Of a stretch of 64,000 nt of DNA, positions 49,994 through 53,706 are shown one piece after another. The notes below the pieces were generated by a model. It did no database searches and was not told where the DNA came from. It worked only from the letters and a program-made list of their open reading frames with translations. Origin of the DNA: Comamonadaceae bacterium (GTDB lineage: Bacteria; Pseudomonadota; Gammaproteobacteria; Burkholderiales; Burkholderiaceae_C); contig CANBUY010000001.1 in assembly GCA_947372745.1 (NCBI GenBank), forward strand, positions 62,001-126,000, read 5' to 3'. The position numbers and the translations under genes are program-made. The first letter of the stretch is position 1; each line of letters opens with the position of its first letter.

Positions 49994-50132
49994 AAGCGGA
50001 TCTTCAGCTTTTCAAGCTACTCGCTCAAGACCCCTCATTCGCAACTAAAAATTGACGGCAGCTTTGTTTTGAACAATTCGTTAATGCATGAACCCGCCAT
50101 TGACTTTGTGCTTAAAGTCGTGCCTCCTTGAT
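49994..50132 (+). pseudogene. EAL-domain remnant
   Basis: One frame reads FSSYSLKTPHSQLKIDGSFV followed by LNNSLMHEPAIDFVL and a stop. LKIDGSFV with a preceding FSSxSxLK is the conserved core of EAL (cyclic di-GMP phosphodiesterase) domains. No start or rest of domain is found. The remaining parts of 49701-50377 hold no recognisable gene; the last 60 bp are AT-rich and may carry the promoter of the next gene. Confidence 0.5.
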
Positions 50133-50377
50133 CGAGACAGGGTTACCCTTAACGTCCAAGATATCAATGTCTGACTACGATATGGCCTACGCCTCCTGTT
50201 TCTAGCGAAGGCGGCGAAGTAAACGTAGATTCGAGGGGCCTAAAATCTGACCGTGTAAAGTTGATGCTTGTCAAAGTTGCAACTTAGCATAAGGAAAAAA
50301 TATTTTTTACCATCATCTGGTGTCCTGCAAGAACTGCAATGGATGTTGTTCCAATTTTTGAATTTAGCTTTAATTAA

Positions 50378-51094
50378 ATGTTCTACGTAAAATACACTAT
50401 GCCTTTGATGTTGATTGCTCTGCTAGTTCCACTTGTAACTGCTTTGACGGGTTGCGCTAGTGCACCACCTTTGCCGTTAGAAAAGCAAAAGGAATACGCC
50501 TTACTCCTTCCGCGGGAAAATAATTCGACCATGATTAGTATGATTGATGGGGTTGGTCATGGATCTTTATCAGGCAAAGGCGTAGATGTGCTTCCAGGCG
50601 AGCGCAGTATTGCAATCGCTACCTGTTTTGGCAGTGCAAATAACTGCGCAACACGCTATTACAAGTTCTACGCAGAGGCTGGGCTTGAATACCGCTTTGT
50701 TAGCACAAATAGCATAGACGTGTATAGCCGTTTTGAGCCAACAAACTTAGTGGATAAACTAGTTGCTTACAGGGGAACTTTCAGCTCTTCGACGAAGGTG
50801 CAGCAGGAAGTCGCGAAACGTCAGCAAGCGGAACTCGAAGCGAAGGCTGCAATTGACTTGGCCACAAATGAGCGTAGAAAACGCGATTTGCCGTCGGTTA
50901 GAAAAATTGGTGCGCGGATTTGCCAAGAACGCCAAGGAGTAGACTATATTGGCTTTGTTGAATCTTTGGCTTCAGAAAAAGTGCAAATTAGAATTTCTAA
51001 TGCTTTCTTCAAAAGTAATCCGAATATTATTCCTGGAGGTTTCGTTCCTTCGATTGTCTGGGACTCCCCTTTACATTGGGATTTGTGCGAATAG
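50378..51094 (+). CDS. Hypothetical lipoprotein, low GC
   Basis: A 238-residue protein with a signal peptide and lipobox LTGC (Cys26). The mature part has no recognised domain; a GERSIAIATCFGSANNCATR segment and a charged helical stretch (QQEVAKRQQAELEAKAA) around residues 147-170 are visible. Base composition is AT-richer than that of the neighbouring genes, and it lies in a gene-poor patch, so it may have been acquired. No function can be given. Confidence 0.6.
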   Translation: MFYVKYTMPLMLIALLVPLVTALTGCASAPPLPLEKQKEYALLLPRENNSTMISMIDGVGHGSLSGKGVDVLPGERSIAIATCFGSANNCATRYYKFYAEAGLEYRFVSTNSIDVYSRFEPTNLVDKLVAYRGTFSSSTKVQQEVAKRQQAELEAKAAIDLATNERRKRDLPSVRKIGARICQERQGVDYIGFVESLASEKVQIRISNAFFKSNPNIIPGGFVPSIVWDSPLHWDLCE

Positions 51095-51232
51095 GGTTAC
51101 CTGAACCTTATTCAACACCCCGCGCAAAATCGCGGGCGACCATTGGACTTCCCCGAAGCGGGTATTTACGGGTGGCGGGTTGCGCTGCCTACTTGACTTA
51201 TATAAGTGCCGATTGACCGACCGCTTTGGGCA

Positions 51233-51589
51233 CCTATGCACAGTTTGAAACTATGCACACAATGGCTTAGTTCGGTCGGCAAGGACCGTATTTTCATTGG
51301 CTTGCAGGGGTAGATGTGGAAATCACACCTGTACATAGTTTCTTGACATTTTCGCCCCCGTCAGTGCAGCTACACCGGAGTGTGGTGAACTGGGGGGGAG
51401 CGGCGCTACTGAGCGTGACCAATCGAGGGGCGTGGTATGAACACTTCCACTGTATGGACGCGGTTTTGAAACAGCCTCAAAAAGCCAGAAACTATGAAAA
51501 GGTATTACCCCGGCTTGCCATACCTCTGTAGCTCGTGAATCGAATGTGTTCAGCCTACCAACTGTGCATAGTTTCAAACTGTGCATAGG
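51233..51589. mobile_element. 357 bp element with 27 bp perfect terminal inverted repeats, possibly a MITE
   Basis: Left end 51233-51259 (CCTATGCACAGTTTGAAACT...) and right end 51563-51589 are exact reverse complements. Each end is itself a near-palindrome centred on AGTTTGAAACT. Two internal copies of the 9-mer core occur at 51334 (CATAGTTTC) and 51488 (GAAACTATG), so the four cores alternate in orientation. No transposase gene is inside. Dinucleotide CA borders both ends, a weak hint of a short target duplication. 51095-51232 holds no gene. Confidence 0.55.
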
Positions 51590-51590
51590 C

Positions 51591-51618
51591 AGCGCAATGT
51601 ACAGATGTACATTGCGCT
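51591..51618. repeat. Perfect 12 bp inverted repeat
   Basis: AGCGCAATGTAC (51591-51602), four-base loop AGAT, then GTACATTGCGCT (51607-51618). No T-run follows on either strand, so it is not a plain terminator; it could be an operator or the edge of the adjacent element. Confidence 0.6.
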
Positions 51619-51672
51619 ACAAACCCGACCATCGATACCCGGCTTTTAGCGCAACGATGCCAGCCACACGCT

Positions 51673-51792
51673 AAAATATATGCTATTGCATGTATTTTAG
51701 GTGAACCTGCGTAATTCCAGCTAAATATATTTTTACGCATATTTTTTATTGACAACTAAGGGGGACTTGGTTAGATTGTATGCAAATGCATA
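51673..51792 (+). promoter_or_regulatory. hipBA-type promoter region with two operators
   Basis: First operator: AAAATATATGC/GCATGTATTTT at 51673-51683 and 51688-51698 with 10 of 11 pairs. Second: TATGCA-AA-TGCATA at 51779-51792, 20 bp before the ATG. Shared ATGC/GCAT half-sites flanking the promoter fit autoregulation by the HTH protein. The region is very AT-rich. Confidence 0.55.
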
Positions 51793-51811
51793 TATTAGTA
51801 AAATCTCAACT

Positions 51812-52114
51812 ATGTTAATTCCCGTCGCTACTGTCGCTGATCTTGGACTGCTTCTTCGCGCGACCCGTAAAGCTCAAGGCGTGAGGCTTGATGATTGCGC
51901 TGGCAGCGCTGGCGTGGGGACAGTATTCGCGGGGGAGGTTGAGCGGGGTAAGGACTCCGTGCAACTTGGATTGGTGTTTAAACTTTTAGACGAACTAGGC
52001 TTGGCACTGAAGGTTGATTTTCCTGAAAATGCCCTGCCAATGCTTCGGCAGTTGCAGGAAAAAGGCGTTCGGCCATTGCCGCCCCGTCGTGCCACAAAAG
52101 GAGCGCAAGCGTGA
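51812..52114 (+). CDS. HipB-like XRE-family antitoxin/regulator
   Basis: A 100-residue protein with an XRE helix-turn-helix (LGLLLRATRKAQGVRLDDCA then GVGTVFAGEVERGK, residues about 11-47) and a short tail. It pairs with the HipA-like kinase whose GTG start overlaps its stop by 4 bp. The ATG at 51812 lacks a clear ribosome site; an in-frame TTG at 51767 with AAGGGGG just upstream is an alternative start. Confidence 0.82.
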   Translation: MLIPVATVADLGLLLRATRKAQGVRLDDCAGSAGVGTVFAGEVERGKDSVQLGLVFKLLDELGLALKVDFPENALPMLRQLQEKGVRPLPPRRATKGAQA

Positions 52115-53439
52115 GTTCGGCTCCCCGCATGCTCAATGTTTCGATCAATGAGAACCAGGTTGGACAGTTGCGGGAACTCAACGATATCTGGTCTTTCGAA
52201 TACGACACGAGTTGGCTGCAAAACCCCAATGCATTCAGTCTTTCCCCTGGTTTAGCGATGACAACGCCATTGCATGTGGATGGCTCATCCATTCGGCCAG
52301 TTCAGTGGTATTTCGACAATTTGCTTCCAGAAGAGTTGCTTCGTGAAGTCTTGGCCAAGGAGGCCAAGCTCGCCTTTGCCGATGCGTTTGGGCTACTTGA
52401 ACACTTTGGTTCGGAGTCGGCGGGCTCACTGGTATTGAAGGCGCCTGGCGATGCTGATACGGCACAAGGCTTGAAGTCACTGTCATTGGCCGATCTGCAC
52501 CGGCGTATCAAAAACCTAGCGCACGCCTCGTTGACTCAGGATGCGCCCAAGCGGATGTCGTTAGCAGGCGCCCAGCACAAGATGGTCGTGGTTCTTGAAG
52601 GTCAGGAACTATTCGAGCCATTGCCTGGCACACCATCAACACATATCCTGAAGCCAAATTCGCCGTCGCTTGATTACCCGTCCTCGGTGATTAATGAATT
52701 CTTCACTATGCGCCTAGCCAGCGCAGTCGGGCTTAAGGTTCCTGCGGTTGACCGCTTGTACGCGCCCACACCGGTGTACCTCATCGACCGATTTGACCGA
52801 ACCCGCGCTGCTGACTCTTCGGTTGAGCGAATTCACGTCATTGACACATGCCAGCTACTGAGCAAATCGCGGGCATTCAAGTATCAACAAGCCACGCTGG
52901 AAACCTTGGTTCAGGCCATCAAACAGTGCCGCGCTAAGGCCGCGACGCGGGTTCAGCTTTACCGCTGGCTGTTATTCAATAGTTTGGTTGGCAACGGCGA
53001 CAACCACTTGAAAAACATCTCTTTTCGAGTTGACCACGAAGGCATCAACCTGGCGCCAGCCTACGACCTGTTGTCCACAGCCGTTTACGCCACGCCCGCC
53101 TTGGCTCAACAGATGCCAACCTGGCCCCGAGTTGAGTTGGGCGTCTCGCTTGTGGGCGCCCACTACTTCAGCGAGGTGACCCGTGACAAGTTGATTGAGG
53201 CCGGGACGGTCTTGGGCTTGAAGTCTGACACGGCTCATAGGGAGCTCGCAGCCATGGAAAAAAGGTTGCCGATCGCAGCCGATGCACTTTTAGCAGACAT
53301 CATGGAAAAGTTCGAGGGACTCATCAATGCGAGCCCAGACCCCGACGCAGTGAGAGCTGTTCAAGGCGGCGAGGTGCGGCTGCTTCGAGCCATTCGAAGC
53401 ATAGTTATTAGGGGCATGCTGGATCAGATCCGAGGGTAG
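52111..53439 (+). CDS. HipA-family serine/threonine kinase (toxin-like)
   Basis: A 442-residue HipA-type kinase. Landmarks: N-terminal subdomain to about residue 105, the glycine-rich MSLAGAQHKM at 149-158, ILKP with ATP-binding Lys181, catalytic GNGDNHLKN with Asp297, and AYDLL with metal-binding Asp319. All catalytic residues are present. In known systems HipA phosphorylates glutamyl-tRNA synthetase or related targets and causes dormancy; HipB silences it. The GTG start overlaps the regulator stop and has AAAAGGAG upstream. Confidence 0.88.
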   Translation: MSSAPRMLNVSINENQVGQLRELNDIWSFEYDTSWLQNPNAFSLSPGLAMTTPLHVDGSSIRPVQWYFDNLLPEELLREVLAKEAKLAFADAFGLLEHFGSESAGSLVLKAPGDADTAQGLKSLSLADLHRRIKNLAHASLTQDAPKRMSLAGAQHKMVVVLEGQELFEPLPGTPSTHILKPNSPSLDYPSSVINEFFTMRLASAVGLKVPAVDRLYAPTPVYLIDRFDRTRAADSSVERIHVIDTCQLLSKSRAFKYQQATLETLVQAIKQCRAKAATRVQLYRWLLFNSLVGNGDNHLKNISFRVDHEGINLAPAYDLLSTAVYATPALAQQMPTWPRVELGVSLVGAHYFSEVTRDKLIEAGTVLGLKSDTAHRELAAMEKRLPIAADALLADIMEKFEGLINASPDPDAVRAVQGGEVRLLRAIRSIVIRGMLDQIRG

Positions 53440-53706
53440 AAGTAGGCCGTCAAGGTCTTGCCGAAAATGCCGGTTCGAGCAACGGCGCCAGGTCACGACT
53501 CTATTCGTTTAGGGTTGTAGGATGCTCGCCCGCAGCAACGTGCCAAGACCGTTAAATCACTCGCAAGGGTGGTGTCATACGCCTACAAAACACCGCATCT
53601 CAACCCATGCCACCACTTAGTCTGATCCGCAAATTGCGCCCTAACCAGCCTTCGACTTCAGATTGCCGTTTATAGTGGCCTTTTTACTTAAAACGGACCC
53701 ACTTCC

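Follow-up and report, generated by a model that had tools for sequence, protein, structure and literature searches.

The window analysed here is a stretch of 64,000 nucleotides, and the feature under study is an element of 357 bases at positions 51233-51589. A repeat search of the window detected two inverted arms of 27 nt (51233-51259 and 51563-51589) that are 100% complementary with 303 nt between them, which bears out the description in an earlier note of perfect 27-bp inverted ends about 300 bp apart. By simple arithmetic, chance alone would give ∼3e-11 perfect inverted pairs of 27 bp within 1 kb. Four internal 9-mers that alternate in orientation, also described in that note, were read in the sequence, with GAAACTATG at 51247-51255 and 51488-51496 and CATAGTTTC at 51334-51342 and 51567-51575. 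The element is neighboured on one side by a 238-aa ORF without a family match and on the other, directly downstream, by a HipB/HipA-type toxin-antitoxin pair (51749-53439). Among the profile matches of this pair, TIGR03070 was below its curated cut-off, and TIGR03071, PF13657, and PF07804 were above theirs. No tRNA genes were found in the window.

The ORF list and Pfam searches of 51233-51589 revealed neither the ritA/ritB/ritC trio of RIT (recombinase-in-trio) elements nor any other recombinase ORF, and the two ORFs of 71 and 87 aa in the element had no Pfam match. The absence of a transposase reported earlier was borne out. The longest stop-free stretches in the window copy are 86 and 88 codons. 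In a copy from another genome (G107), which is 81% identical, they are at most 58 codons on the + strand, and on the − strand they reach 61 codons in the frame that starts alike and 80 in another; the interior ORFs of the window element are not conserved there. A search of positions 50000-53500 for Rfam families gave 0 matches up to E=1.

Every arm contains two cores of the CTGTGCATAG type with a spacing of 17 bp; further in, each side has one more core in inverted orientation. On the left, the outermost core (CTGTGCATAG on the − strand) is at 51234-51243, the second core at 51251-51260 (− strand), and the inner inverted core (CTGTACATAG, + strand) at 51329-51338, the position that it takes in RIT left ends, upstream of ritA. 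On the right, the inner inverted core (CTTTTCATAG on the − strand) is at 51492-51501, a site that usually overlaps the ritC stop codon in RITs, and the second and outermost cores follow on the + strand at 51562-51571 and 51579-51588. The interior (51343-51487) has no detected gene and no convincing ritA or ritC remnant. The terminal inverted repeats of the window element resemble those of RITs, and both ends carry the full core set in RIT spacing with the genes absent.

Another RIT trait, a palindrome adjoining an end, is present in the window as well. Next to the right arm we read a 6-bp spacer between element and palindrome, GCAGCG (51589-51594), a 20-bp palindrome of two abutted cores (CAATGTACAGATGTACATTG, 51595-51614), and a far 6-bp overlap, CGCTAC (51615-51620), which matches the reverse complement of the GCAGCG spacer at 5/6 positions. 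The palindrome is read as inserted, being absent from RIT empty sites (see below). The bounds 51233-51589 are slightly too narrow, and the inserted unit very probably takes in 51589-51620 (6 + 20 + 6 bp). The left 6-bp overlap would be GGGCAC at 51228-51233; this role is assigned by analogy with a RIT empty site, and the match to the far right copy is 3/6.

On the left flank, two dispersed repeats of the genus (51137-51231) abut the element. They read without the element in genomes G083 and G004, and a further match was found in G085. As the upstream TTGCGCTGCCTA mirrors TAGGCAGCGCAA, an insertion of 41 bp into the left end was at one point considered for the bases before 51233. This reading was rejected, since 51180-51231 is a dispersed repeat, of which G083 has an element-free copy (85% over 52 bp).

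The window's own assembly consists of 3.62 Mb in 217 contigs and is 86% complete. Four of its contigs (C1, C23, C92, and C96) begin inside the element: the first bases are those of its right part in two contigs and of its left part in the other two. Each shows 2 differences from the window over 117-141 bp. Contig ends within the element would be expected from the way an assembly treats a multi-copy sequence. These near-identical partial copies are the other copies in the genome that the earlier note had proposed to look for. Their flanks diverge no more than three bases away from the 6-bp spacer. C1 and C23 have GCAGCGTAA in common and then differ; in C92 and C96, the palindrome and CGCTGC are followed by sequence that differs from its second base on.

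Element DNA was detected in 5 of 60 genomes, the window's own included (the match in G013 is to the palindrome only), and other queries gave further matches among the 89-genome set of the genus. Complete gene-less copies were read in the window, in G107 (contig C265), at 1.28 and 1.51 Mb in G010, and in G085 (contig C27). The G107 copy is identical to the window in 294 of 362 columns. G010 is a single-contig genome, and its two copies lie at different places. Identity to the window is 55% for the 1.51-Mb copy of G010 and 54% for the G085 copy, little above chance outside the cores, and the score of the window interior against the 1.51-Mb copy was no better than 18/200 shuffles. The core layout is common to the window and the diverged complete copies. 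The element is accordingly not a single copy kept at the same place in all relatives, and related ends do occur elsewhere. A plasmid search with the whole element gave no match. The genes adjoining one of the G010 copies (L056, 3461-6955) may form a cluster resembling Wadjet (JetABCD), judging by the look of the ORFs.

We examined complete RITs as candidate autonomous partners. A locus in the same genus (L053, G026:C278) has three overlapping ORFs of 425, 338, and 337 aa, each with a Phage_integrase domain. This locus is an intact RIT element, and it is bounded by the repeats of the window element (93% over 40 bp and 89% over 71 bp). The spacing of core starts is similar, 86 and 78 bp in the window vs. 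85 and 74 bp in L053; beyond the cores the end segments of the two are only 65-66% identical. The earlier note had suggested a search for a transposase with matching ends. Enzymes with such ends were indeed found, in relatives, and they are three tyrosine recombinases, not a transposase. RitC relatives at E≤1e-60 are present in 13 of the 89 genomes of the genus. In the window's own 86%-complete assembly no intact RIT was found; this assembly also holds distant recombinases with 25-32% identity and one short 44% match. On another of its contigs (L069, G000:C181, 279-700) we observed the remnant of a different RIT, in which the last 103 aa of ritC precede a right end of the RIT type; this ritC remnant is 68% identical to the L053 RitC over 100 aa. 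A RIT-like locus in G008 (L109, contig C267) has a ritC 98% identical to that of L053. This ritC runs on beyond its usual stop, fused to unrelated DNA, and lacks any right end after it.

Genome G085 contains both an intact RIT (L110, no stop inside any of the three genes) and a gene-less copy. The two have the same AGGCTG spacers and agree in 93/104 columns at the right end and in 82/114 at the left end. The gene-less copy gives a match to the start of ritA by the left inner core (score 60) and a match to the end of ritC before the right inner core (score 47), with 0/500 shuffles as good in each case. Because these scraps of ritA and ritC are retained, the most likely origin of the G085 copy is a RIT that lost its middle by deletion. 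A ritA signal was also present in the 1.28-Mb copy of G010 (0/500 shuffles) and was not found in the 1.51-Mb copy (67/500 shuffles). For the window copy, six comparisons with ritA and ritC gave one result at 2/300 shuffles and the others at 59 to 286, which is not convincing.

The arrangement of cores in the window was compared with that of RIT ends. Van Houdt et al. (2012) describe an inverted repeat of 28-9 bp with a palindrome overlapping it, and no other convincing repeats in the part of their account drawn on here (PMC3414803). In nearly all RIT ends tested, two outer cores ∼17 bp apart are accompanied by an inverted core further in. We collected 27 RIT-like loci. The search for an inverted copy of the second core, in the stretch from the ritC stop to the repeat, covered 21 right ends, among them the remnant L069, a RIT truncated on the left (L137), and a locus matched in ritC only (L117). 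In 19 of these ends the best match begins no more than 0-2 bases away from where the stop codon begins (6 and 10 bases in the others). It beats shuffles at p<0.05 in 17, the remaining four falling short. Five other loci were read singly, and L136 is not in the count. By eye, the inner core is at the stop codon in L127, L132, and L134, and perhaps ∼13 bases after it in L121; the fifth, L109, is the locus without a right end. Fourteen left ends were tested, the rest being without a left repeat found or outside the sample. Here the best match for the inner core is 70-82 bp inside in 13 and 57 bp in the other, and p<0.05 was reached in 9 and missed in five. Since the core strings were picked by eye and some loci are closely related, the p-values serve as guides, and the constant position of the inner core is the stronger evidence.

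Empty sites of RITs provided information on what is inserted. In pSymA of Sinorhizobium meliloti USDA1157, a RIT (L135) is located within an IS66-like element that is RIT-free in strain AK76 and in Rhizobium etli. The empty site (L171) reads ..GGAATTC-TTCCTC-GTCAGGG, with a single TTCCTC, and the filled site reads ..TTCCTC-[20-bp palindrome]-GAGGAA-[RIT]-TTCCTC-GTCAGGG. The palindrome and the reversed 6-mer arrived together with the RIT, and each outer edge bears the 6-mer. A RIT on an Agrobacterium pAt plasmid (L137) agrees at its right junction, where the palindrome and TCGTTG are absent from a RIT-free relative and CAACGA is retained; only this junction is usable, as no left repeat was found. 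Agreement is rough rather than clean for a Mesorhizobium RIT, in which the two 6-mers match at 4/6. The palindrome had been considered a pre-existing target because it was found alone in G013 and G005. For RITs this idea was dropped, as two RIT empty sites lack the palindrome. The lone GCAGCG-palindrome-CGCTGC units without an adjoining RIT end (L168 at G013:C209 and L038 at G005:C168) could be scars, targets, or minimal units.

The far 6-mer was compared with the 6-mer of the opposite end in 14 elements that have a 20-bp palindrome on one side and in which both ends were read. The match was 6/6 in seven elements, 5/6 in two, 4/6 in two, and 3/6 in three (the window, L113, and the 1.28-Mb copy of G010). 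The mismatch between the 6-mers of the window copy could stem from a crossover over unlike 6-mers or from change after insertion. The palindrome (at least 7/10 pairs) is on the right in 4 of the 14, namely the window, L112, L115, and the 1.51-Mb copy of G010, and on the left in ten. In this survey, the right end of L114 was misplaced. L110 and L116 have no palindrome; by eye, L119 has one on the left and L120 at both ends, which at 18 bp are outside the fixed 20-bp frame. From the GCAGCG spacer onward, the DNA to the right of the G107 copy is a dispersed repeat with other occurrences in the genus. The G107 copy sits exactly at the edge of this repeat, which starts with GCAGCGGAAGCCGACCGCCACGAAAGGCAGGTTACGGGAAGTCCA in its G107 form and occurs without RIT ends in several genomes of the genus (L156-L165). 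Ten such repeat loci were read: none is preceded by a RIT end, and GCAGCG is exact in seven, has one difference in one, and more in two.

We conclude, with a probability of roughly 90%, that 51233-51589 represents a non-autonomous (“miniature”) RIT element in which both ends are kept and ritA, ritB, and ritC are absent. The earlier proposal of a non-autonomous mobile element is upheld by the contig-end copies, the diverged copies elsewhere in relatives, and an autonomous element with matching ends. Since the genes have been lost and the ends retained, the miniature probably depends for its movement on recombinases supplied by complete relatives. One alternative is that the copies are decayed RIT remnants that never moved as miniatures: the genes would have been deleted in situ, and further copies would have come solely from homologous recombination or segmental duplication. 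It would account for the lack of an intact RIT in the window's assembly and for the outcome of the search for empty sites: the sites that the earlier note had suggested seeking were seen for RITs, and none that is clean was found for the miniature in the window, G107, or one G010 copy, where the flanks did not align through. We consider it improbable all the same, because near-identical copies in one assembly have flanks that part so close to the spacer, two copies occupy different places in G010, and both ends are retained together with palindrome and spacers, the palindrome on either side. Far less credible is an invertible switch, in which the segment between the repeats would flip by site-specific recombination and control a neighbour such as hipBA; the perfect inverted repeats and the palindrome on the right in the window and on the left in G107 would suit it, but other copies adjoin other sequences, no gene was found in the interior, and RITs are shown to insert as whole units. 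The suggestion in the earlier note of a structured RNA or regulatory DNA locus, here with a host function, fits the conserved internal sites and long perfect arms that would be expected to fold, yet it can practically be set aside given the missing Rfam match, the copies at different places, and the RIT elements bounded by the same sites.

For the miniature RIT reading, the following route may be envisaged. RitA, RitB, and RitC of a complete RIT would bind the cores, and the ends would be joined into a circle via a 6-bp spacer, the 20-bp palindrome, and the reversed 6-bp spacer. The circle would then insert by crossover over 6 bp. As the joint would be symmetric, either spacer could be used for crossover, which may be the reason why the palindrome is left in some copies and right in others. 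The inner cores are probably needed in cis for movement, because they are retained in gene-less elements, and they are probably more than operators of ritA. In its full form this scheme is speculative and rather unlikely: RITs and miniatures would move as circles with a palindromic joint made with the crossover 6-mer and its reverse complement, the joint could come from copying through a hairpin-closed end, and the recombinases would split the work among the outer pair, the inner inverted core, and the palindrome. If true, it would be a tyrosine-recombinase transposition route with gene-less RITs as its parasites. To our knowledge, no such route through a circle and a palindromic joint has been described for tyrosine recombinases.

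RitC relatives are common: at E≤1e-40, one RitC protein matches 522 of 72,556 plasmid records, a count of RitC relatives and not of confirmed RITs. The 2012 paper states, in the part used here, that RIT mobility is still to be demonstrated by experiment (PMC3414803). Natural gene-less versions indicate which DNA is probably sufficient in cis, and the miniatures are a ready donor for testing which recombinase does what. The empty-site comparison leads to an insertion rule by which RITs and their miniatures could be annotated base by base. We found no mention of gene-less RITs in the portion of the open literature covered, a scope outside which the main RIT paper (Ricker et al., 2013) falls, and their novelty is provisional. 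The 34-bp RIT repeats given in a 2023 paper (PMC10214605, as far as its consulted part goes) would fit a core pair plus the 6-bp spacer.

Several known systems are similar to the window element in part. Like integron gene cassettes with attC, which are recombinase-less units moved in trans by a tyrosine recombinase, it lacks a recombinase gene; judged by its anatomy, it differs from them in being two-ended with inverted ends. MITEs derived from DDE insertion sequences are short, gene-less, and present in several copies with two terminal inverted repeats. In contrast to these, the ends of the window element match tyrosine-recombinase RITs, and its parent has three tyrosine recombinases, with a proposed 6-bp crossover and palindromic joint. 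SEs likewise have two or three tyrosine recombinases or related proteins; their inverted ends are imperfect and their footprint measures 6 bp. They are much larger and have their own four-gene module, and the part of the source used here describes no 20-bp palindrome (PMC5385486). Compared with the RIT elements of Van Houdt et al. (2012), the window element is without ritA, ritB, and ritC and measures ∼0.36 kb vs. ∼3.5 kb, and the inverted inner core and the rule of 6-bp and palindrome insertion are not in the consulted part of that account. The two are alike in their terminal repeats (28-9 bp there, 27 bp here) and in the adjoining palindrome (PMC3414803).
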